From assembly GCA_946887295.1 (NCBI GenBank), contig CAMPKP010000116.1:1-11698 (forward strand): a stretch of DNA of 11,698 bases, read 5' to 3'. Positions within the stretch are counted from its first letter, which is position 1; the number at the start of each line of letters is the position of its first letter. Positions 1 to 11,698 of this stretch are shown here, piece after piece. Position numbers and translations under genes: made by a program. Below the pieces are notes generated by a model that was not told the DNA's origin, ran no database searches, and was given only the letters and a program-made list of their open reading frames with translations. This DNA comes from an uncultured Gemmatimonadota bacterium. GTDB taxonomy: Bacteria; Gemmatimonadota; Gemmatimonadetes; Gemmatimonadales; GWC2-71-9.

Positions 1-111
1 GAAGGGCGGAGCAGATTTCTCGCCCTGCTCGGTCTGATGGTCAGCGCCGTCGCCGCACTCCTCATCGCGGCGCAATGGTCGGCCACGCTCTTCCTGCATC
101 CCTGCCAATGA
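1..111 (+). CDS. Small membrane protein, C-terminal end only (5' end outside window)
   Basis: Frame 1 is open from the first base to a TGA at 109-111, giving the last 36 residues of a protein that begins upstream. The fragment is one hydrophobic helix (about residues 6-32 of the fragment) ending in a Leu-His-Pro-Cys-Gln tail. That resembles the C-terminus of the complete small membrane protein at 9154-9561, which also ends in a helix followed by Leu-Pro-Pro-Cys, so I infer a paralogue. Its stop overlaps the ctaG-like start (ATGA), which implies translational coupling. Small membrane proteins of this sort sit beside ctaG and alternative cytochrome oxidase genes in other bacteria. Their function is not known to me. 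The resemblance is over a short hydrophobic stretch and so is moderate evidence. Confidence 0.6.
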   Translation, partial: EGRSRFLALLGLMVSAVAALLIAAQWSATLFLHPCQ

Positions 112-1346
112 CCGGGCTCGCGCTGCACGTGCACGATGGCGCGCTAGGGCCCCACGATCTGTGGCGCGCGTGGAGCTGGGAGCCCGGAGTGCTGGTCGGA
201 TTGGGCCTCGCGGCGCTGCTCTATGCGCGCGGCATGGCGCGGCTCCGCGTCCGGGCCGGACACCGGGCCCCGGCGCGCCGGCGCGAGGCCCTGTCCTGGT
301 GGACCGGTCTGGCGCTGCTGGGGATCGCGCTGCTCTCGCCGCTGCACAGCCTGGGCGAGACGCTGCTCGCCGCACACATGACCCAGCACGAGCTGCTGAT
401 GGTAGTCGCCGCACCGCTGCTCGTGCTCGGCCGCCCGCTCGTGGTGTCGCTGTGGGGCTTGCCGATGGGCTGGCGCAGGGCCGTGGGCCGCGGGGCCGGC
501 CGTCTCGGCCCCGCGTGGCGCGTCCTCTCGCGGATCGAGGTCGCCTGGCTGCTGCATGCGGCCGCCATCGTCGGCTGGCATGCCCCCTCGCTGTACCAGC
601 GCGCCGCGGCATCCGATGCGGTCCACGCTCTCCAGCACGCCAGCTTCCTGCTCACGGCGCTGCTCTTCTGGTGGTCGGTGCTGCCCGCGGCATCGCAGCG
701 CGGCCGCCACGGCGCCGCGATCCTGTCGCTCTTCTCCACCATGATCTACACCGGCGGACTGGGTGCGCTGCTGACGCTGAGCCGCACCCCGTGGTATCCC
801 GCCTACGGCGCCGGGGCGCCGCTCTGGGGGCTGACGCCGCTGGAGGACCAGCAGCTCGCCGGTCTCATCATGTGGGTTCCCGGGGGAGTGTCGTATCTCC
901 TCGCCACGCTCTGGCTGGTGGTCGCGTGGCTGGGGGCGTCCGAGCGAAGGGTCGTCTATCTCGAGCGCCTGCGGGCCGGGACTCCCGCGGTCGCGCTGCT
1001 GCTTCTGCTCGGCGGGTGCGGGGATCGGACCGCGCTCTCTCCGGCCGACGCGGCACAGCTGACCGGCGGCGATCCCGACCGCGGGCGCCTCGCCCTGCGC
1101 CATTACGGCTGCGGGTCCTGCCACACGGTGGAGGGCGTTCCAGGCGCGGCCGGGCTGGTGGGGCCGCCGCTCGGCGGCATCGGCGCCCGGGCTTACGTGG
1201 CGGGGGTGCTGACCAACACGCCCGAGAACCTGATCCGCTGGGTCATCGCGCCCCGTGAGGTGGACCCGCGCACCGCCATGCCCGATGTCGGCGTCTCGCC
1301 GGCGGACGCGCGCGACATCGCGGCCTATCTGTATACCCGCCCCTGA
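108..1346 (+). CDS. ctaG: CtaG-type caa3 oxidase assembly factor fused to a C-terminal cytochrome c domain
   Basis: A 412-residue protein. Residues 1-285 match the Caa3_CtaG membrane family: about seven helices (near 24-42, 62-80, 90-112, 143-165, 174-192, 203-221 and 252-275), with His-rich motifs such as HMTQHE (90-95) and GWHAP (156-160). This family is needed to assemble caa3-type cytochrome c oxidase, probably through copper handling. Without a stop, the frame continues into a hydrophobic stretch ending LGGC (Cys304), which looks like a lipobox, and then a class I cytochrome c domain with CGSCH (335-339) and a likely Met391 axial ligand. I chose ATG 108 because it overlaps the upstream stop as ATGA and gives a normal CtaG N-terminus; an in-frame ATG at 75 lies deep inside the upstream gene. 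No Shine-Dalgarno is evident. Seven helices would leave the C-terminus inside, so the extra hydrophobic segment would correctly export the heme domain. An internal start giving a separate lipoprotein cytochrome is an alternative. Confidence 0.88.
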   Translation: MTGLALHVHDGALGPHDLWRAWSWEPGVLVGLGLAALLYARGMARLRVRAGHRAPARRREALSWWTGLALLGIALLSPLHSLGETLLAAHMTQHELLMVVAAPLLVLGRPLVVSLWGLPMGWRRAVGRGAGRLGPAWRVLSRIEVAWLLHAAAIVGWHAPSLYQRAAASDAVHALQHASFLLTALLFWWSVLPAASQRGRHGAAILSLFSTMIYTGGLGALLTLSRTPWYPAYGAGAPLWGLTPLEDQQLAGLIMWVPGGVSYLLATLWLVVAWLGASERRVVYLERLRAGTPAVALLLLLGGCGDRTALSPADAAQLTGGDPDRGRLALRHYGCGSCHTVEGVPGAAGLVGPPLGGIGARAYVAGVLTNTPENLIRWVIAPREVDPRTAMPDVGVSPADARDIAAYLYTRP

Positions 1347-1394: not shown

Positions 1395-2549
1395 ATGAGT
1401 CCCGGTCCCCGCCCCAGTGACCCGGGTTGGCGCACGCGCGACATTCTCCGAGCGGCGACGCTCGTCGCGGGCGTCTACGTCGCCCTTCGCCTCCTCTGGG
1501 TGGGCCGCTCGGTCTTCCTGATCGGCTTCTTCGGGGTTCTGCTGGGAATCACGCTGGCGGCGGGCGTGGACCGCCTGGAGCGCGTCAGGATCCCGCGGGG
1601 GATCGGAGCCCCGCTCATCGTCCTGCTCTTCTTCGGGGCGCTCACGGGGCTCGGGGTGCTGGTCGCGCCCCAGATCAGCGGTCAGCTCGAGGAGCTACGG
1701 GACCGGATCCCCCAGGCCATCGACAAGGTGGAGCAATGGGCCCAGCAGCGCGGTATCGGCATGGCGGAGATGATCCAGCCCCCGCCGGAGGAACGGCGAG
1801 AGGGATCCGGGACCGCGGCGCCGCGCGGGGAAGGGAATCGGGAGGGCGGCGCCGCGCCCCAGGTGGATATCCGCCAGAGCCTGAGCCGGCAGCTCGCGGG
1901 CGCCGGACAGCACTTCTTCTCGGTCTTCTCGTCCACCGTCTCGGTGCTGGGAGGGATTCTTCTCCTCCTGTTCGTGGCGATCTTCGTGGCGGCCGATCCG
2001 GGTCTCTACCATCGCGGCCTGATGCATCTCTTTCCCCACGGCGCGCGGAAGAAGGCCGGAGAGGTGCTGAGCGCGACGGCAACGACACTGCGGCGCTGGC
2101 TGTTGCTGCAGATGGTCGCCATGCTGGCGATCGGCGCGGTCACCACCGTGGTCCTGCTGCTGCTCGACGTGAAGGCGGCGATCGCGCTGGGCGTCATCGC
2201 CGGGCTGCTGGAGTTCATTCCCTACGTGGGGCCGATCCTCTCCGCGGTCCCGGCGGTCGCGATGGCCCTGGTGGACGGTCCCGACAAGGCGCTCTATGTC
2301 GTCCTAGCCTACACGGCGATCCAGCAGCTGGAGGGGGTGGTGCTCCAACCGCTGCTGATGAAAGCGGGGCTGGAGCTGCCGCCGGTGATCACGATTCTGG
2401 GACAGTCCCTCATGGCGCTGGTGCTCGGTTTTCTGGGGCTGCTGCTCGCGGTCCCGCTGCTCGCGGCCGTCATGGTGCCGGTGAAGATGCTCTACGTGCG
2501 AGACGTGGTCGGTGACGAGGTGAGCGTGCCCGGTGAGGAGAGCGGCTGA
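1395..2549 (+). CDS. AI-2E/PerM family inner-membrane permease
   Basis: A 384-residue polytopic membrane protein of the AI-2E transporter (PerM/YdiK-like) family. Paired N-terminal helices lie at about 18-57 and one at 70-92, followed by a soluble region, then helices at about 181-200, 236-258, 261-292, 299-310 and 332-366. The family signature is visible: LLEFIPYVGP at 271-280 and QQLEGVVLQPLLM at 310-322. Members have been linked to signal-molecule export, Na+/H+ exchange and other transport, so the substrate cannot be assigned. The region between helix 3 and the conserved core holds a charged, Pro/Gly/Glu/Arg-rich low-complexity stretch at about 128-160. A 48-base gap separates it from ctaG, with no clear Shine-Dalgarno. 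Its stop overlaps the next start as TGATG, so it is probably cotranscribed with the FNT gene. Confidence 0.88.
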   Translation: MSPGPRPSDPGWRTRDILRAATLVAGVYVALRLLWVGRSVFLIGFFGVLLGITLAAGVDRLERVRIPRGIGAPLIVLLFFGALTGLGVLVAPQISGQLEELRDRIPQAIDKVEQWAQQRGIGMAEMIQPPPEERREGSGTAAPRGEGNREGGAAPQVDIRQSLSRQLAGAGQHFFSVFSSTVSVLGGILLLLFVAIFVAADPGLYHRGLMHLFPHGARKKAGEVLSATATTLRRWLLLQMVAMLAIGAVTTVVLLLLDVKAAIALGVIAGLLEFIPYVGPILSAVPAVAMALVDGPDKALYVVLAYTAIQQLEGVVLQPLLMKAGLELPPVITILGQSLMALVLGFLGLLLAVPLLAAVMVPVKMLYVRDVVGDEVSVPGEESG

Positions 2550-3340
2550 TGGCCGAGCAGCCCGAGGAGGGAACCCGCCTCACCGCAGCGCAGATCCACG
2601 AGAACATCCTGCGCCCGGCGGAGCAGGAGATCCGCCGGCCCGCGGCGGCCCTGCTGTGGTCGGCGCTGGCGGCCGGGCTGGTGATCGGCTTCAGCAGTCT
2701 CGCCGCCGCATTCGCCGCCCACACGGCCCCCGAACGCTACGTGCAGGCCGCTTCGGCGGCGGCCTATCCGCTCGGATTCATCTTCGTCATCATCGCCCGG
2801 AGCGAGCTGTTCACCGAGAACACCCTGGTGCCGGTCATCCCGCTCCTGGAGCGGCGGGACCGCGACACCTTCCGAAACGTCGTGCGGGTGTGGGTGCTGC
2901 TCCTGGCGGGCAACCTCGCCGGGACCCTCATCTTCGCGCTGGCGCTGGCGAGGACGCCTGTCCTGCGGCCGGAGGTCGCCGCGGAGCTGCTCGACATCTC
3001 GCGGATGGCGACCACCGGCTCGTTCGTCGAGATCGCGTATGCGGGGGTCTTCGCCGGCTGGCTCATGGCACTGCTGGCCTGGCTGCTGGCCTCGACCACC
3101 TCGACCCTCGCGCAGATCGTGCTGATCTGGCTCTGCACCGCGCCCATCTCCGCGCTGCACTTCCGCCACTCCATCGTGGGCTCCATCGAGGCATTCTATC
3201 GAGCCGCCACGGGCGACGCCCCCTGGGCCGCGATGCTGGGCGGGTTCGTGACGCCCGCGGTGATCGGCAACGCGGTCGGAGGAGTGCTCCTGGTGGCGCT
3301 GCTCAATCACAGCCAGGTCAGGGCGGACCGGAAGGGGTAG
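2549..3340 (+). CDS. Formate/nitrite transporter (FNT) family channel
   Basis: A 263-residue membrane protein of the FNT family, closer in style to YfdC than to FocA or NirC. Six helices are expected; clear hydrophobic blocks lie at about 33-57, 72-84, 112-134, 159-181, 187-201 and 229-252. Family features include ELFTEN (86-91), GNLAG (121-125), FRHSI (205-209), whose His207 corresponds to the central pore histidine of FocA in its FEHSI motif, and GNAVGG (240-245). FNT channels form pentamers that pass small monovalent anions such as formate or nitrite. A GAGGAG Shine-Dalgarno at 2535-2540 lies 8 bases before the start, and ATG 2549 overlaps the preceding stop. Only four bases separate it from the PQQ dehydrogenase downstream, which makes formate (a possible methanol oxidation product) an attractive substrate, though this is inference. 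Confidence 0.9.
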   Translation: MAEQPEEGTRLTAAQIHENILRPAEQEIRRPAAALLWSALAAGLVIGFSSLAAAFAAHTAPERYVQAASAAAYPLGFIFVIIARSELFTENTLVPVIPLLERRDRDTFRNVVRVWVLLLAGNLAGTLIFALALARTPVLRPEVAAELLDISRMATTGSFVEIAYAGVFAGWLMALLAWLLASTTSTLAQIVLIWLCTAPISALHFRHSIVGSIEAFYRAATGDAPWAAMLGGFVTPAVIGNAVGGVLLVALLNHSQVRADRKG

Positions 3341-3344
3341 CTCC

Positions 3345-5204
3345 ATGAACCGTGTGGGGTCCGCTCGGCCGGCCCGTGCCGTCGCCACCGTGATCCTGGC
3401 GCTGCTGGCCGCCTGCGGCCGCGAAGGCACCACCGCACGAAGCGAGACTACCGCGCGGGAGTCACGTCCCGCCGGCGCCCGTGCGACGGCCCGGCCGATG
3501 CTCCCTCCCGGCGCCGATACCACCGAGTGGACCATCCCCGCGCGGGACTACGCCAGCACCCGCTTCAGCGAGCTGAGCCAGATCGACTCCGGGAACGTCC
3601 GCCGGCTCAGACCGGCCTGGACCTTCTCGACCGGCGTGCTCCGGGGGCACGAGGCCGCTCCCATCGTGGCCGACGGCACGATGTACGTGGTCACCCCCTT
3701 CCCCAACCTGCTCTACGCACTGGATCCCGTCACCGGAGCCCTGAAGTGGAGGTACGACCCCCGCACCTCCCGGGCGTCGCAGGGCGTGGCCTGCTGCGAC
3801 GTGGTGAACCGCGGGGCGGCCTACGCCGAGGGGCGGGTGTTCTTCAACACCCTCGACGTGCACACCGTCGCGGTGGATGCCGGGACCGGCAAGGAGATCT
3901 GGAAGACCCGGCTGGGCGACATCAACCGCGGAGAATCCATGACCATGGCTCCGCTGGTCGCGGGTGGCAGGGTGTACGTGGGGAACAGCGGCGGCGAGTT
4001 CGGGGTGCGCGGCTGGATCACCGCACTCGACGCGGCCAGCGGCAAGATCGTCTGGCGCGCCTACCACACCGGGCCCGACGCCGACGTGCTCATCGGGCCG
4101 AGGTTCAAGCCGTTTTATCCCTCGCATCGAGGAAAGGATCTCGGCGTCACCACCTGGCCGCCGGACCAGTGGAAGGTCGGCGGCGCCGCGGTCTGGGGCT
4201 GGATCTCGTACGATCCGGAGCTCGACGCCATCTATTACGGGACCTCGAACCCCGGGGTCTGGAACCCGGCGATGCGGCCCGGCGACAACAAGTGGGCCGC
4301 CAGCATCTTCGCCCGGGACGCGCGGACCGGCGAGGCGCTCTGGGCCTACCAGACGACCCCCCACGACGAGCACGACTACGACGGTGTGAACGAGCTGGTC
4401 CTGCTGGATCTGGATATCGGAGGTCGCACCCGCAAGGTGCTCGTGCGCCCGGGCCGAAACGGCTTCATGTACGTCATCGACCGCGAGAACGGCGAAGTGC
4501 TCTCCGCCGAGCCGTACGGGCCCGTGAACTGGGCCTCGCACGTGGACCTGAAGACGGGGATTCCGGTACTCGATCCCGAGAAACGGACCGGCAACCGCCA
4601 GGCGAGAAACGTCTGTCCCGCCGCGCCGGGGATGAAGGACTGGCAGCCGTCGGCGTTCTCGCCCCGAACCGGGCTGCTCTACCTTCCCCATAACAACCTC
4701 TGCATGGACTACGAGGGTGGTGAGGCCGGCTACATAGCTGGAACGCCCTACGTGGGGGCCCAGGTGAAGATGTACGCCGGCCCGGGCGGTCACCGGGGTG
4801 TGTTCTCCGCCTGGGATCCGGCCCGGCAGCGGGAAGTGTGGGCGATCAAGGAGCGATTCCCGGTGTGGAGCGGCGCGCTGGTGACGGCCGGCGACGTGGC
4901 TTTCTACGGCACGATGGACCGGTGGTTCAAGGCGGTGAACGCGCGCACCGGGGAGCTGCTGTGGCAGACCCAGGTCGGCTCCGGGATAATCGGACAGCCC
5001 GTCACCTATATGGGCTCCGACGGGCGGCAGTACGTCGCGATCCTCTCGGGTGTCGGCGGGTGGGCCGGCGCGCCGGCACTCGGCATCCTTCCCGAAATCG
5101 ATCCGTTCATCGCGCTCGGCTTCGCCAACGCCACCAAAGATCTGCCGCGATACACGGCGCAGGGAGGCGCGGTGAACGTCTTCGCGCTCGAGGGCGAACG
5201 GTGA
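3345..5204 (+). CDS. xoxF: PQQ-dependent alcohol dehydrogenase, XoxF-like, lanthanide-type active site
   Basis: A 619-residue protein of the methanol/ethanol dehydrogenase family: an eight-bladed propeller holding PQQ in the periplasm, oxidising a primary alcohol and passing electrons to a cytochrome c. Visible hallmarks are the adjacent-cysteine pair Cys150-Cys151, the metal ligands Glu218 (GGEFG) and Asn302 (TSNPG), and the catalytic Asp344 followed two residues later by Asp346 (HDYDG). This second Asp marks lanthanide-binding XoxF/PedH-type enzymes; calcium MxaF enzymes have Ala or Ser there. The C-terminal region (GIIGQP, SGVGGWAG, ALGFANA, KDLP) is very XoxF-like. The N-terminus is a signal peptide with a lipobox (LAAC, Cys24), so it is probably a lipoprotein, whereas characterised XoxF enzymes are usually soluble. 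AAGGGG at 3332-3337 is a good Shine-Dalgarno. There is no xoxJ or PQQ synthesis gene in the window. The substrate (methanol or a longer alcohol) is not proven. Confidence 0.93.
   Translation: MNRVGSARPARAVATVILALLAACGREGTTARSETTARESRPAGARATARPMLPPGADTTEWTIPARDYASTRFSELSQIDSGNVRRLRPAWTFSTGVLRGHEAAPIVADGTMYVVTPFPNLLYALDPVTGALKWRYDPRTSRASQGVACCDVVNRGAAYAEGRVFFNTLDVHTVAVDAGTGKEIWKTRLGDINRGESMTMAPLVAGGRVYVGNSGGEFGVRGWITALDAASGKIVWRAYHTGPDADVLIGPRFKPFYPSHRGKDLGVTTWPPDQWKVGGAAVWGWISYDPELDAIYYGTSNPGVWNPAMRPGDNKWAASIFARDARTGEALWAYQTTPHDEHDYDGVNELVLLDLDIGGRTRKVLVRPGRNGFMYVIDRENGEVLSAEPYGPVNWASHVDLKTGIPVLDPEKRTGNRQARNVCPAAPGMKDWQPSAFSPRTGLLYLPHNNLCMDYEGGEAGYIAGTPYVGAQVKMYAGPGGHRGVFSAWDPARQREVWAIKERFPVWSGALVTAGDVAFYGTMDRWFKAVNARTGELLWQTQVGSGIIGQPVTYMGSDGRQYVAILSGVGGWAGAPALGILPEIDPFIALGFANATKDLPRYTAQGGAVNVFALEGER
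5190..5194 (+). promoter_or_regulatory. Shine-Dalgarno for the GTG-started cytochrome c gene
   Basis: GAGGG lies six bases before GTG 5201, inside the last codons of the dehydrogenase gene. It supports the GTG start, which gives a perfect short lipoprotein signal, over any longer version of the frame reaching back into the dehydrogenase. Confidence 0.6.
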
Positions 5205-5662
5205 GGGCCGGCGGCGCCATCATCGGCCTCGCGATCCTGCTCGCGGGGTGCGATGCGGAGCGGCCGTCCCGCGTCACGGACGCCCCCTCCTGGCTCGCCG
5301 AGCCGATCGCCGCCATCAGGACCAGCGAGCTGGTGGCCGGCCCCGGCGACCCGCTGCCCGAGATCGGGAATCCGGCCGCCGACGATCCCGGAGCGCTCGC
5401 GCAGGGCCGGCAGCTCTATCTGGCCTTCAACTGCACCGGCTGCCATGGCGCCGCAGGCGGTGGGGGCATCGGCCCGCCGCTGGCCGACGACGACTGGATC
5501 TACGGCGGCTCGGCTGCGAACATCTACGCGAGCGTCATCCAGGGCCGTCCGAACGGGATGCCCGCCTTCGGCCCCCGCATGACCGGCGACGCGGTCTGGA
5601 AGCTTGCGGCCTACGTCCGCTCGCTCGGCACCGGGACCGGGGAGCGACAGAACGATGAGTGA
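5201..5662 (+). CDS. Lipoprotein c-type cytochrome, likely electron acceptor of the PQQ dehydrogenase
   Basis: A 153-residue monoheme cytochrome c started at GTG 5201, which overlaps the dehydrogenase stop (GTGA). Residues 1-17 form a short signal ending in LAGC (Cys17), so the mature protein should be lipid-anchored. The heme motif is CTGCH (78-82), and Met120 (NGMPAF) is the likely sixth ligand. The spacing and the GMPAFGPRM region differ from the other three cytochrome domains in the window, so it is not a recent copy of them. Its position directly after a XoxF-like gene is that of XoxG/cytochrome cL, the physiological electron acceptor. I therefore infer it carries electrons from PQQ to the oxidase. 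The sequence does not by itself prove xoxG identity. Its end overlaps coxB by eight bases. Confidence 0.87.
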   Translation: MRAGGAIIGLAILLAGCDAERPSRVTDAPSWLAEPIAAIRTSELVAGPGDPLPEIGNPAADDPGALAQGRQLYLAFNCTGCHGAAGGGGIGPPLADDDWIYGGSAANIYASVIQGRPNGMPAFGPRMTGDAVWKLAAYVRSLGTGTGERQNDE

Positions 5663-6590
5663 CTGGACCGCAGCCGGCCCGGCCGCGGCGCGGATCGACG
5701 AGCTGTTCCGCTCCATGACGCTGCTGGGAGCGATCGTGTTCCTGGTATTCAGCGCGGCCCTGGCGTTCGCGCTGCTCCACCGCCGCCGGCCGGTCCAGCC
5801 TCCCGGCCCGGAGCGCGACCGCCGAGGAGCCCGGGCCATTCTGCTGCTCGGGGCTGTGGTTCCCACCTTGATACTGGTACCGCTGGCGCTCTGGACCATG
5901 CGCACCCTCGCTGCGCTGGACCCCTACGCCCGCCGGCCGGATCTGGTGGTGGACGTGGTGGGGAAGCAGTGGTGGTGGGAGGTGCGCTATCGGGACAGCA
6001 TCCCGGGGCGGACATTCGTCACCGCCAACGAGCTGCACGTTCCCGTCGGGCGCCGGGTGGAGCTGCGGCTCACCTCCACCGACGTCATCCACAGCTTCTG
6101 GGTCCCTCGCCTGCACGGAAAGACCGACCTCATTCCGGGGCGCGAGAACGTCATGTGGATCGAGGCCGACCGCCCCGGCATCTACGGGGGGCAGTGCGCG
6201 GAGTACTGCGGCCTCCAGCACGCCACCATGGGACTGACCGTGATAGCGGAGACCGCCGGCGAGTACGAGGCGTGGGCGGCCCGGCAGCGGGAATCCGCCG
6301 CCGAGCCCGAGGATTCCCTCGCGCGCATGGGGCAGCAGGCATTTCTCGATGGGTGCGCGCTGTGTCATTCGGTGCGGGGCACCCCCGCGGGCGGCAGCGC
6401 GGGCCCCGATCTCACCCACGTGGCCAGCCGGAGCACGCTGGCCGCGGGGCTCCTGCCGAACACACCGGGCCATCTCGGCGGCTGGATCGCGAACCCTCAG
6501 GCGCTGAAGCCGGGGAGCCGCATGCCGCGGGTGCCGCTCTCCAACCGCGAGTTCCGGCTCATCCACCGCTACGTGCTGAGCCTGGAATAG
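5655..6590 (+). CDS. coxB: Cytochrome c oxidase subunit II with CuA site and fused cytochrome c (caa3-type)
   Basis: A 311-residue subunit II. Two N-terminal helices (about 20-42 and 60-83) precede a cupredoxin domain. The Trp-rich patch QWWWE (105-109) is where cytochrome c usually donates electrons. The complete CuA ligand set is present: His146, Cys181, Glu183, Cys185, His189 and Met192. A C-terminal cytochrome c domain follows, with CALCH (234-238) and likely Met290, making it a caa3-type subunit. The cytochrome domain shares an NTPxxL-x-x-WI region with those at 9558-9998 and at the end of the ctaG frame. ATG 5655 was chosen because it gives a normal N-terminus and has GGGGAG (5639-5644) upstream; a longer in-frame start at 5604 lies within the previous gene. 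It overlaps the preceding stop by eight bases. Confidence 0.95.
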   Translation: MSDWTAAGPAAARIDELFRSMTLLGAIVFLVFSAALAFALLHRRRPVQPPGPERDRRGARAILLLGAVVPTLILVPLALWTMRTLAALDPYARRPDLVVDVVGKQWWWEVRYRDSIPGRTFVTANELHVPVGRRVELRLTSTDVIHSFWVPRLHGKTDLIPGRENVMWIEADRPGIYGGQCAEYCGLQHATMGLTVIAETAGEYEAWAARQRESAAEPEDSLARMGQQAFLDGCALCHSVRGTPAGGSAGPDLTHVASRSTLAAGLLPNTPGHLGGWIANPQALKPGSRMPRVPLSNREFRLIHRYVLSLE

Positions 6591-6593
6591 CAC

Positions 6594-9149
6594 ATGGCCA
6601 CCGGCGCCGAGGTCAGGTCCCCGCCGCGGCTCGATCGCAAGGACGCGTTCGAGCGGATCTGGCGCCAGCCGTCCGGGCTCATCGGGCTGCTGCGCACGGT
6701 GGACAACATCCCCATCGCCCAGCGGTACATGGCCACCGGGTTCGCGTTCTTCGCGCTGGGCGGGGTGCTCGCGCTGCTGATGCGACTCCAGCTGGGCCGC
6801 CCCGACAACACCTTCCTCGACGCCGAGACGTACAACCAGCTCTTCACCATGCACGGGACGACGATGATGTTCCTCTTCGTCATCCCGTTCATCGAGGCGC
6901 TCGCCAACTACATCCTGCCGCTGCTGCTGGGGACGCGGGACCTGCCGTTCCCGCGCCTCACCGCGCTGAGCTACTGGACCTATCTGTTCGGCGGCATTCT
7001 GCTGTACTCCAGCTTCCTCTTCGGCGTGGCGCCGGACGGCGGGTGGTTCGCCTACGTGCCGCTTACCAACAAGCAGTGGTCGCCCGAGCTCAACCTGGAC
7101 TTCTGGGACATCGCGCTCAGCGTGGCCGAGGTCGCCGCGATGGGGGCCGCCGCGGAAATGATCGTGGCGGTGCTGCGGATGCGGGCACCGGGCATGTCGA
7201 TCAACCGGATTCCCGTCTTCGGCTGGGCGATGCTGGTGACGGCGTTCATGATCATCTTCGGGTTCACCCCGCTCATCGTCGGCACGGCGATGCTGGAGCT
7301 GGACCGGAAGGGGCTCACCAGCTTCTTCGTGCCCGAGAACGGCGGCGACCCGCTGCTCTGGCAGCACATGTTCTGGGTCTTCGGCCACCCCGAGGTCTAC
7401 ATCATGTTCCTCCCGGCGGTCGGCATCGTGACCCAGATCGTTCAGGTGTTCTCCCGCCGCCCCGTGGTGAGCTACACGCTGGTCGTGGTGGCACTGATCG
7501 CGACCGGCTTCCTGAGCTTCGGGTTGTGGGCGCACCACATGTTCACCACCGGGCTGTCGCCGCTGGCGATGGGGTATTTCGCCGCCGCGAGCACGGTGAT
7601 CGCCATACCGACCGGGGTGCAGGTGGTGGGCTGGGTGGCGACACTGTGGACCGGCCGGCCGCTCTGGCGTACGCCGCTGCTCTTCGCGCTCGCCGGGCTG
7701 GTGATCTTCGTGCTCGGCGGCATCACGGGAGTGATGGTGGCGTCGGCGCCGTTCGACCTCCAGGCGCACGACTCCTACTTCGTGGTGGCCCACATGCACT
7801 ACGTCCTGATCGGCGGGGTCATCTTCCCCCTCTTCGCCGGCCTCTACTACTGGCTGCCGAAGATCACCGGCCGGATGATGGGCGAGCGGCTCGGCCGGTG
7901 GAGCGCGGCTGTGATGTTCGTGGGCTTCAACCTGGCGTTCTTCCCCATGCACATGTCCGGGCTGCTGGGGATGGCCCGGAGGGTCTACACCTATCCCGCG
8001 GGTATCGGTCTCGAGGGATACAATCTGCTCTCCACCATCGGGGCGTTCGCCTTCGCCGCGGGCGTGCTGCTCACCGTGGCGAATTTCGTGACCAGCCTGC
8101 GCCGCGGGCCACCGGCGCCCGACAACCCATGGAACGGCGATTCGCTGGAGTGGTCGGTGAGCTCGCCACCACCACAGGCGCAGTTCGGCCGGCTGCCCGT
8201 GGTGCGCGACCGCCATCCGCTCTGGGACGAGCAGTGGCGGCAGGAGACCATGCGCCCGGAGGAGACGCCGCTCTCGGACCCCGATGCACGGGAGGACGTG
8301 GCGCAGATGGACCACTGGCCCACCACATGGCGGGGAGCGCTCGTCGTGACCGTCACCGAAGGCCGGCCGCTGGCGGTGGTGCATCTGCCCCGGACCTCCA
8401 TCGCGCCGTTCCTCATGTCGGTCGGGTTGGTGGTTCTGTTCGCAGCGCTCATCGTGGACCGGTTGCCGGGGATAGCCGCCGGAGCGGCGATCATCGCCGT
8501 CTCGCTGGTGCTGTGGTTCCGGCCCCAGGAGACCGAGACCAACGCCATGGAAGAGATCGGCCGCCCCGGGGCCGACGAGCTGCCGCTGGCTCAGGCCGGA
8601 CCGATGTCGAACGGCTACTGGGGAACCGTGGTCCTCCTGCTCATCCTCGCGACCGCGCTCGCATCCATCGTGGCGAGCTACTTCTACCTCGGCGGCAACG
8701 CCCGGTCGGGTGAGGCGGGCGGTCCCATGACCACGCTCACGGGCCCGGCCGCGGCCGCGGCGCTCATAGTGGCCGGCGCGGGCGTCGCGCTCGCGGTCGT
8801 CCGCGGGATCAGGAACGGGCGGAGGGCCGTGATCCTCCCTGGCCTCCTCGTCGCCCTCGGGCTCGCCGGGGCGCACCTGTGGGTTCTGGTCGATGCGGTG
8901 AAGGGCTCCGGCCTGGCCCCTGCCGCCGACGGCCGGGACTCCGCCTTCGCCGCCGTGGCGGGGTTCCAGGCGCTGGTGAGCGTCACGCTCATTGTCATGC
9001 TCGCGGTCGCGATCGTGTGGGCGATGGCCCGCCCTGCAGACGCGCGCGGCCACGCGACCGCGTGGAACGCGAGCCTGGTCTACTACTTCACGGCGGCGAG
9101 CGGGGTGATCGCGCTGTCGGTGCTCTACCTCGCGCCGCGGACTGGATGA
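6594..9149 (+). CDS. coxAC: Cytochrome c oxidase subunit I+III fusion, A-type heme-copper oxidase (CoxN-like)
   Basis: An 851-residue fused subunit I (about 1-515) and subunit III-like region (about 590-851), joined by a polar linker. This is the oxygen-reducing core. Heme and copper ligands are all present: His87 and His402 (low-spin heme), His400 (high-spin heme), and His265, His314 and His315 (CuB), with Tyr269 for the His-Tyr crosslink and Glu267 (GHPEVY) of the D pathway. Asp116 and Asn105 of the D-pathway entry are kept, but the position of bovine Asn98 is Thr123, and the K-pathway Lys (bovine Lys319) is Gln343 in PTGVQ. The N-terminus reads DNIPIAQRY rather than the usual DHKxIG. By memory these features resemble rhizobial CoxN-type alternative oxidases. 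The subunit III part is divergent, with recognisable SYFYL and a final NASLVYYFTA helix. It starts three bases after coxB, with only a weak Shine-Dalgarno. Confidence 0.94.
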   Translation: MATGAEVRSPPRLDRKDAFERIWRQPSGLIGLLRTVDNIPIAQRYMATGFAFFALGGVLALLMRLQLGRPDNTFLDAETYNQLFTMHGTTMMFLFVIPFIEALANYILPLLLGTRDLPFPRLTALSYWTYLFGGILLYSSFLFGVAPDGGWFAYVPLTNKQWSPELNLDFWDIALSVAEVAAMGAAAEMIVAVLRMRAPGMSINRIPVFGWAMLVTAFMIIFGFTPLIVGTAMLELDRKGLTSFFVPENGGDPLLWQHMFWVFGHPEVYIMFLPAVGIVTQIVQVFSRRPVVSYTLVVVALIATGFLSFGLWAHHMFTTGLSPLAMGYFAAASTVIAIPTGVQVVGWVATLWTGRPLWRTPLLFALAGLVIFVLGGITGVMVASAPFDLQAHDSYFVVAHMHYVLIGGVIFPLFAGLYYWLPKITGRMMGERLGRWSAAVMFVGFNLAFFPMHMSGLLGMARRVYTYPAGIGLEGYNLLSTIGAFAFAAGVLLTVANFVTSLRRGPPAPDNPWNGDSLEWSVSSPPPQAQFGRLPVVRDRHPLWDEQWRQETMRPEETPLSDPDAREDVAQMDHWPTTWRGALVVTVTEGRPLAVVHLPRTSIAPFLMSVGLVVLFAALIVDRLPGIAAGAAIIAVSLVLWFRPQETETNAMEEIGRPGADELPLAQAGPMSNGYWGTVVLLLILATALASIVASYFYLGGNARSGEAGGPMTTLTGPAAAAALIVAGAGVALAVVRGIRNGRRAVILPGLLVALGLAGAHLWVLVDAVKGSGLAPAADGRDSAFAAVAGFQALVSVTLIVMLAVAIVWAMARPADARGHATAWNASLVYYFTAASGVIALSVLYLAPRTG

Positions 9150-9153
9150 GCCG

Positions 9154-9561
9154 ATGAGCCAGGGCGAGACCGAGCAGGCGATCCCGCCAGGGGTCAGGTC
9201 GCCGGGCCGAACCCTCTTCGCGATGTTCGGCGGCGTGGCTGCGTGGACGCTCCACTTCCTGGGGAGCTACGCGATCGTGGCCATCGGGTGCGTGGCCCGA
9301 TGGCGGGGGATCGTCGAGGTCGTGGTGATCATCACGGTGGTGCTGGCGGCGCTCGCCGCGTGGTCCACGCTCTCGGCGTGGCGCGGCTGGCGCCGCGTGA
9401 GCGGAGGCCAGGCCTGGGACCAGGCGCTGGGCGAGCCGCGTGGATGGTTCGCGTGGCTGATGACGATCGGTGTGCTGCTGGGCGCCACCTCGGTGCTGAC
9501 CATCCTGCTCGAGGGGATGGGAGCCCTGATGCTGCCGCCGTGCGGCTGGGACGTGCGGTGA
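9154..9561 (+). CDS. Small three-helix membrane protein of the cox cluster, function unknown
   Basis: A 135-residue protein with a polar N-terminus and three predicted helices at about 20-47, 54-77 and 96-123, ending in a Leu-Pro-Pro-Cys-containing tail. I do not recognise a named function. Its position four bases after the I+III subunit gene and in overlap with a cytochrome c gene suggests a small accessory or assembly subunit of the oxidase; the alternative CoxMNOP operon also has a small membrane subunit. The C-terminal helix and Pro-Cys end resemble the partial gene at 1-111. The stretch AWTLHFLGSYA (30-40) includes a His within the first helix that could bind metal or heme, but nothing shows this. 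GGATGAG (9144-9150) before the start can serve as a Shine-Dalgarno. Confidence 0.8.
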   Translation: MSQGETEQAIPPGVRSPGRTLFAMFGGVAAWTLHFLGSYAIVAIGCVARWRGIVEVVVIITVVLAALAAWSTLSAWRGWRRVSGGQAWDQALGEPRGWFAWLMTIGVLLGATSVLTILLEGMGALMLPPCGWDVR

Positions 9562-9998
9562 CGCCGCTCAGCGGGTGGGCTGCCATCCTCCTGCTCGCGA
9601 GCGCGGCGTGCTCCCGCGCGGATGAGGAGGCTTCCCGCGCGCGGATGCTCGCGATCACCCGCGGCGATCCCGGCGCCGGCGAGCTCGCCATCGGGAAATA
9701 CGGCTGCGGTGCGTGTCACGTGATCCCGGGTGCCGCTCGCGCGCGGGGACTGGTCGGACCGCCGCTCACCGACTTCGCGCGGCGCAGCTACATCGCCGGG
9801 GCGGTCTACAACACGCCGGCCAACCTGGTCGCCTGGATCCGCCGGCCCGACTCCGTCGAGCCGGGCACGGTGATGCCGACACTCGGCCTGAGCGAGCAGG
9901 AGGCACGCGACATCTCGGCGTATCTGTATCTCGAGACCGCCACCGGCGGGCTGGGCCCGCCACACCTGCTGCCGGCATCGCTGCTGCAGGGCGAGTAA
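9558..9998 (+). CDS. Lipoprotein c-type cytochrome, paralogue of the CtaG-fused domain
   Basis: A 146-residue monoheme cytochrome c. GTG 9558 overlaps the previous stop (GTGA) and gives a lipoprotein signal ending SAAC (Cys18). The heme motif is CGACH (50-54), with Met106 (GTVMPTLG) as probable sixth ligand. It is clearly homologous to the cytochrome domain at the end of the ctaG frame: both share a GDP start, YGCGxCH, GLVGPPL, Y-I/V-A-G, NTPxNL, MPxxG and ARDI-A/S-AYLY in the same order. It closes the oxidase cluster and probably donates electrons to CoxB or is an accessory heme subunit. An internal start downstream would lose the signal peptide. The Shine-Dalgarno is weak, so coupling to the previous gene is likely. 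Confidence 0.87.
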   Translation: MTPLSGWAAILLLASAACSRADEEASRARMLAITRGDPGAGELAIGKYGCGACHVIPGAARARGLVGPPLTDFARRSYIAGAVYNTPANLVAWIRRPDSVEPGTVMPTLGLSEQEARDISAYLYLETATGGLGPPHLLPASLLQGE

Positions 9999-11640: not shown

Positions 11641-11698
11641 GGTGGTTGTAGCTCAATCGGTTAGAGCGCCGGACTGTGGCTCCGGAGGTTGCGGGTTC
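11641..11698 (+). tRNA. tRNA-His (anticodon GTG), 3' end beyond the window
   Basis: The sequence starts with the extra G (G-1) typical of tRNA-His, followed by the acceptor strand GTGGTTG. A D-arm (GCTC...GAGC) follows, then an anticodon stem CCGGA/TCCGG with loop CTGTGGC, giving anticodon GTG. The window ends inside the T-arm (GCGGGTTC), so the 3' acceptor strand and discriminator cannot be checked. The order of parts and the close match to the bacterial tRNA-His pattern make the call secure. Confidence 0.93.

Follow-up and report, generated by a model that had tools for sequence, protein, structure and literature searches.

A predicted lipid-anchored XoxF3-like methanol dehydrogenase encoded next to a lipoprotein-type cytochrome c and a caa3-type oxidase in an uncultured Gemmatimonadota bacterium

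The window analysed in the present study is the whole 11,698-nucleotide stretch of contig CAMPKP010000116.1 (GenBank assembly GCA_946887295.1) from an uncultured Gemmatimonadota bacterium. From the AI-2E transporter gene through the second cytochrome gene, the genes share a strand and either overlap by 1–8 bases or are separated by 4 bases at most, in the order AI-2E transporter, FNT, XoxF, cytochrome c, CoxB, CoxA, 135-aa protein and second cytochrome. The genes of the window are as follows.

75–1346, + strand: CtaG oxidase assembly factor with an in-frame C-terminal cytochrome c domain; the true start is perhaps the ATG at 108.
1395–2549, + strand: AI-2E family transporter (PF01594, 180.5 bits), overlapping the FNT gene by 1 base.
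2549–3340, + strand: FNT formate/nitrite transporter (PF01226, 176 bits), 4 bases upstream of xoxF.
3345–5204, + strand: xoxF, encoding a XoxF3-like PQQ methanol dehydrogenase and predicted lipoprotein of 619 aa (translation, TIGR03075, fold match to 4mae).
5201–5662, + strand: XoxG-like c-type cytochrome of 153 aa with a GTG start and lipobox L-A-G-C, Cys17 at 5249–5251 (profiles, homologues).
5655–6590, + strand: cytochrome oxidase subunit II of the caa3 type with a C-terminal cytochrome c domain (CoxB, 178.9 bits against a cutoff of 147.7; PF00034).
6594–9149, + strand: cytochrome oxidase subunit I of 851 aa with a long C-terminal extension (CtaD_CoxA, 681.1 bits against a cutoff of 670.75; PF00115).
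9154–9561, + strand: hypothetical protein of 135 aa in the oxidase cluster, of no family, with homologues at L128, L131 and L139.
9558–9998, + strand: second c-type cytochrome with a lipobox-like S-A-A-C, Cys at 9609–9611, and no Lys or Arg before it.
11642–11698: partial tRNA gene, truncated at the edge of the window (RF00005 in Rfam, 45 bits; no ARAGORN call).

The GTG at 5201 lies inside the end of xoxF, giving a 4-base overlap with the xoxF stop. Positions 1–111 contain the tail of an ORF that overlaps the probable start codon of CtaG (108); on visual inspection, this tail is similar to the C-terminal part of the 135-aa protein (9154–9561).

The xoxF ORF begins at the first start codon past the upstream stop (3345) and translates into 619 residues with zero internal stops, and its product scored 666 bits against TIGR03075 (PQQ-dependent methanol/ethanol dehydrogenase family; cutoff 480). 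Its active-site features are as follows.

3792–3797, + strand: vicinal pair Cys150-Cys151 (residue index, alignments).
3996–3998, + strand: Glu218, expected metal ligand (residue index, alignments).
4248–4250, + strand: Asn302, expected metal ligand (residue index, alignments).
4374–4382, + strand: Asp344-Tyr345-Asp346, with the catalytic Asp first and the additional Asp of lanthanide-type enzymes last (index, alignment).

Bases 4374–4382, GACTACGAC, encode Asp-Tyr-Asp, so that the first-pass annotation had read this motif correctly (index and base check), and Glu218, Asn302 and Cys150-Cys151 are intact by residue index, as it had also claimed. Cys150-Cys151 presumably forms the disulphide over PQQ, a role taken from established methanol dehydrogenase structures. 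In the alignment with 4mae, Asp344 and Asp346 fall onto Asp299 and Asp301 of XoxF2, which passages of PMC8546591 identify as the lanthanide pair. The alignment thus places Asp, matching Asp301 of XoxF2, at position 346, and the MxaF-type Ala is absent there. The extra Asp, proposed earlier to be of the lanthanide type, is accordingly present as a predicted ligand and is constant in Gemmatimonadota relatives, E218, N302, D344, D346, C150, C151 and R371 all being kept in 49/49 Gemmatimonadota XoxF alignments. Passages of PMC8546591 also give an Asp preceding the Glu ligand as the mark of XoxF1, which is excluded here because Gly217 stands before Glu218. Judged by sequence, the xoxF product is a XoxF-type PQQ methanol dehydrogenase with a predicted lanthanide-type Asp pair. 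His343 (4371–4373) precedes the catalytic Asp, at a site occupied by Trp in 5/5 reference methanol dehydrogenase chains, and is invariant across 30 close relatives in the alignment. The replacement of Trp by His was considered as a hallmark and set aside as weak, since the site is His in only 28 of the 49 Gemmatimonadota XoxF alignments (Trp 14, Tyr 5, Phe 2).

Among solved chains, 4mae gave the best sequence score (657 bits), followed by 6oc5 (578 bits), 6dam (577 bits), the calcium MxaF 4tqo (569 bits), the XoxF1 7o6z (565 bits) and the PedH chains 6zcv and 6zcw (361 and 359 bits). The top Foldseek match was likewise 4mae (52% identity, TM 0.92 by target length), and the PedH identities in the fold search were 35% and 34% (6zcv and 6zcw). 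The AlphaFold model built from a 30-row alignment (mean pLDDT 77, pTM 0.82) supports the fold only, because the input alignment was shallow. XoxF2 of Methylacidiphilum fumariolicum SolV (4mae, 6fkw), the best sequence and fold match, shares the Glu, Asn, Asp-x-Asp and Cys-Cys, but has Trp298 ahead of the catalytic Asp where the window enzyme has His343; to our knowledge, it is soluble, with no oxidase genes adjoining. The XoxF enzymes of Methylobacterium extorquens (6oc5) and Methylomicrobium buryatense (6dam), both of them soluble, have the same lanthanide ligand set but belong to a separate clade. The calcium methanol dehydrogenase MxaF (4tqo) shares the fold and PQQ site but has Ala in place of Asp346, whereas PedH, also a lanthanide PQQ dehydrogenase, is distant in both score and identity.

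The homologues used were the best 120 of at least 7995 scored candidates; P0002 and P0003 were 100% identical to the query, and the nearest named relatives among the matches listed were Gemmatimonadales with 80–81% identity. With MxaF as the outgroup, the query fell in a starred clade apart from 7o6z (XoxF1), XoxF2, 6oc5, 6dam and MxaF. Because the tree contained no XoxF3-labelled sequence, the name XoxF3 rests on the Gemmatimonadetes and Methylocaldum XoxF3 described in parts of the published literature. The usual neighbours of XoxF3, namely genes for a XoxG-like cytochrome, cox and ctaG, lie in the window (75–1346, 5201–9149). On the tree and the gene neighbours together, we provisionally group the xoxF product with XoxF3 and call it XoxF3-like.

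Two further features precede the propeller domain of the enzyme.

3345–3416, + strand: predicted signal peptide of lipoprotein type; the lipobox L-A-A-C includes Cys24, encoded at 3414–3416 (lipobox rule, alignment).
3417–3521, + strand: low-complexity tether, residues 25–59, from Cys24 to the propeller (length, composition, pLDDT).

In the leader, MNRVGSARPARAVATVILALLAAC, a basic n-region is followed by hydrophobic residues and then by LAAC, which ends in Cys24, and the AlphaFold model has a helix at residues 11–21 and low confidence at 23–41 (pLDDT under 50). The 30-row alignment comprised the query and 29 sequences hand-picked from the best 120 homologues (67–82% identity to the query). 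Cys24 was invariant in 30/30 rows and was the sole invariant column before W62, the leaders otherwise diverging; because it is conserved amid a diverging leader, which is the main evidence of this study, Cys24 is probably functional. The lipobox rule was our own pattern of position, hydrophobicity and Lys/Arg in the n-region rather than a trained predictor. The query leader passed the relaxed rule, and homologue leaders passed the relaxed and strict rules in 94/107 and 85/107 cases, respectively, where 107 is the 121 rows, query included, minus 11 truncated or unparsed rows, the query and two near-identical rows. Failures under the relaxed rule (13 leaders) came, for example, from a missing Lys/Arg, hydrophobicity just short of the threshold, a polar residue or a late start. 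An [AGS]C stood 22–75 residues ahead of the domain in 107/107 homologues, which is a weak test alone. As a control, Met residues inside these proteins were treated as starts, and the relaxed rule matched 0/1103 of them; two Pseudomonadota leaders that it matched (L024 and L042) were judged false. The tether, rich in A, G, P, T and S in the Gemmatimonadota relatives, was 31–60 residues long among 46 relatives’ genes and 32–38 residues long in 35 of them. The LAAC lipobox noticed in the first-pass annotation is thus real as a motif, with Cys24 in place, and predicts a departure from the soluble periplasmic state typical of studied XoxF enzymes. The enzyme is probably lipid-anchored and membrane-tethered rather than free, a prediction made earlier that holds with Cys24 conserved where the surrounding sequence diverges.

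The protein search, run in a phylum sample around a Gemmatimonadales genome, gave matches at E 1e-150 or better in 102/395 genomes, some of which are perhaps other than XoxF3, and 47 regions were examined (8 loci from searches and 39 further fetched). The relaxed rule was passed by 46 of 47 Gemmatimonadota XoxF3-like leaders, these being 49 XoxF rows minus L129 (cut by a contig end) and L158 (masked); the exception, L157, is without a lipobox. On a FastTree tree of 126 rows, with 33 of 123 forks open, cut N-termini unlabelled and three labels set by hand, a lipobox occurred in 46/50 Gemmatimonadota rows, three of the four without it (L091–L093) being outside the XoxF3 group. The corresponding counts were 4/42 for Pseudomonadota after three hand edits (5/42 before), 3/11 for Acidobacteriota, where five of the eight without are XoxF2-like, 2/3 for Myxococcota and 0/4 for other phyla. 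The fewest changes explaining the lipobox on the tree numbered 11, and the lipobox seems to follow phylum more than enzyme lineage because Gemmatimonadota rows fall in several clades. A second XoxF group (L090–L093), from four genomes also carrying the lipidated-type XoxF3, forms its own clade (support 100), with a lipobox in 0/4, Trp before the catalytic Asp and, by eye, an ordinary signal peptide. Among more distant PQQ enzymes, L094, L095, L096, L100 and L101 are without a lipobox and L098 and L099 have one. The notion that Gemmatimonadota lipidate every periplasmic dehydrogenase was thus not supported, given L090–L093 and the five of seven distant PQQ enzymes without a lipobox. A predicted lipid anchor on XoxF3 appears to be the rule in the sampled Gemmatimonadota, not a single-enzyme quirk. 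Tandem XoxF pairs, each member with its own lipobox, were seen upstream of one cytochrome in L133 (6898, 8796) and L134 (7584, 9482).

The N-terminus of the neighbouring cytochrome, MRAGGAIIGLAILLAGC (GTG read as Met), contains a lipobox by eye. The XoxF-adjacent cytochromes of relatives passed the relaxed lipobox rule in 41/45 cases; among the four failures, L146 and L149 have a lipobox by eye, L054 is misframed and L162 is truly without one. Under a looser rule in which Lys/Arg was not required, the cytochrome had a lipobox at 50/52 loci with a XoxF lipobox versus 20/43 without, the two misses being L162, whose XoxF has a lipobox, and L044, where a lipobox is visible by eye. Outside Gemmatimonadota, the counts were 8/9 versus 19/42 (Fisher p 0.026, uncorrected for descent). 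Phylogenetically independent-pair tests were not significant, with too few pairs to confirm the cytochrome association, and phylum is a confounder for the lipoboxes on both XoxF and the cytochrome. Oxidase genes adjoin 48/48 loci with a XoxF lipobox and 40/46 without, and ‘no cox’ is under-counted because that label required 4 kb on both sides, while ‘cox’ required only a match within 9 kb. A lipobox tracking an adjoining oxidase was thus rejected, since cox genes also adjoin 40/46 loci without it; the oxidase adjoins XoxF regardless of the lipobox and by itself does not explain why XoxF would be anchored. The earlier picture of a fixed dehydrogenase beside tethered cytochromes holds as a prediction for the neighbouring cytochrome, which carries a lipobox at 50/52 loci with one on XoxF, but oxidase adjacency does not account for it. 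XoxJ gave no match within the window (best E 0.43), and XoxJ matches occurred in 33 of the 47 relatives’ regions, which are of unequal length, with three such genes above the TIGR03871 cutoff. XoxJ is a common rather than a defining neighbour of XoxF3, and PMC10875860 lists it for four of the Gemmatimonadetes XoxF3 systems. In the cytochromes next to XoxF, the lipid Cys is often followed by x-Arg-Glu (Arg at +3 in 31/41, Glu at +4 in 32/41), perhaps a sorting or docking signal, and the window cytochrome has Cys-Asp-Ala-Glu in place of this pattern.

An FNT gene, upstream of xoxF in the window, also recurs near XoxF3 in 9/47 regions (L004, L137, L138, L145, L146, L150, L152, L154 and L156). Among 43 Gemmatimonadota genomes picked for carrying XoxF, FNT matches with E-values of 1e-8 or lower were obtained in 29. 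An FNT start lay within 16 kb of a listed XoxF in at least 13 of these 29 genomes versus about 0.4 expected, and within 6 kb in at least 7 versus 0.16 expected, counts that are lower bounds because many contigs are short and the XoxF considered are those among the matches listed. The linkage probability of 3e-17 overstates independence because the genomes are related. Nitrite and other small anions are further possible substrates of FNT proteins. According to passages of PMC10875860, formaldehyde is among the compounds that XoxF enzymes are able to oxidise, and this reaction would yield formate. No report of XoxF together with a formate transporter was found in the literature searched.

Considering the ligand set, lipoboxes, operon-like layout and conservation, which are read from the sequence, we think it likely that the locus encodes a lanthanide-dependent, lipid-anchored XoxF3 methanol dehydrogenase passing electrons via a lipoprotein cytochrome c to a caa3-type oxidase; lipidation, the membrane concerned, the metal, the substrate and the electron path are what we infer. 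XoxF would be exported by Sec and cut by signal peptidase II before Cys24, which a lipid would then anchor, and a flexible tether of about 35 residues would hold the propeller domain out into the periplasm. There PQQ, together with a lanthanide bound by Glu218, Asn302, Asp344 and Asp346, would oxidise methanol. The lipoprotein cytochrome c, whose gene overlaps the end of xoxF, would take up the electrons and transfer them to the caa3-type oxidase encoded after it, and so to O2. A wider scheme, which we put forward tentatively and consider doubtful as a whole, is a membrane-surface C1 respiratory unit, in which anchored XoxF3 would take methanol via formaldehyde to formate and FNT would import the formate, with no cytoplasmic formaldehyde pathway needed and with electrons going to the anchored cytochrome and a dedicated caa3 oxidase.

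XoxF may instead be a lipoprotein of the outer membrane, acting at a distance from the oxidase in the inner membrane, and the cytochrome would then span the periplasm between them, although we regard this as rather unlikely. In E. coli, Asp after the lipid Cys keeps lipoproteins in the inner membrane; at that position XoxF seldom has an acidic residue (3 Asp and 1 Glu among 46), but 21/41 cytochromes have one (Glu 15, Asp 6), and the window XoxF and cytochrome have Cys-Gly and Cys-Asp, respectively. However, sorting rules differ between phyla, and Glu, the commoner acidic residue, is not the classical signal. A PedH-like role, as a lanthanide dehydrogenase acting on larger alcohols or aldehydes, is improbable. 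In its favour, the substrate is not readable from sequence, and passages of PMC10875860 (2024) state that there are no biochemical data for XoxF3. Nevertheless, methanol dehydrogenases are far closer to the window enzyme than PedH (657 versus 361 bits; 52% versus 35% identity), and the FNT linkage suits a C1 product. An ordinary soluble periplasmic XoxF, cut by signal peptidase I near the Ala residues with Cys24 incidental, is very improbable, because although purification of characterised XoxF enzymes has yielded soluble proteins and the 38/42 Pseudomonadota rows without a lipobox imply that the enzyme can work without one, there is no ready reason besides lipidation for a Cys24 that is invariant amid diverging leaders, and 46/47 Gemmatimonadota leaders pass the rule. 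The lipid-anchored XoxF3 is thus the reading that we retain.

Voutsinos et al. (2024; PMC10875860) describe, in passages of that paper, XoxF3 clusters with XoxG, cytochrome, CtaG and a small hypothetical protein in Gemmatimonadetes and Acidobacteria. The Gemmatimonadetes clusters are from the same phylum as the window and share these genes with it, and the transporters linked in the same passages are NRAMP, MscS and TonB-dependent ones. Words starting with ‘lipo’ and the term ‘signal peptide’ are absent from the main text of PMC10875860, and no lipidated XoxF is described in the titles or abstract openings of the papers that searches of the open (non-subscription) literature listed; the lipoprotein in passages of PMC10260701 is unrelated to XoxF, and the word ‘lipoprotein’ is absent from PMC11996626. 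The type of gene cluster is thus already published, and a lipid anchor on XoxF3 came up in none of these searches. An excerpt of PMC12482762 reports higher XoxF3 levels in the proteome of a methanotroph exposed to cerium and ore, which is consistent with lanthanide use. XoxF3 was also the commonest methanol dehydrogenase type in a weathered-granite study (340/411 sequences; passages of PMC10875860). The predicted anchored XoxF3 is worth an experiment but is not a new system, being a known kind of enzyme in a known cluster. A lipid anchor would affect expression and where the enzyme is sought, namely in the membrane fraction, with Cys24 either kept or cleanly removed, and the FNT linkage points to formate as a product to look for. 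Furthermore, the predicted anchor gives a clear prediction of how methanol electrons may enter respiration in Gemmatimonadota.
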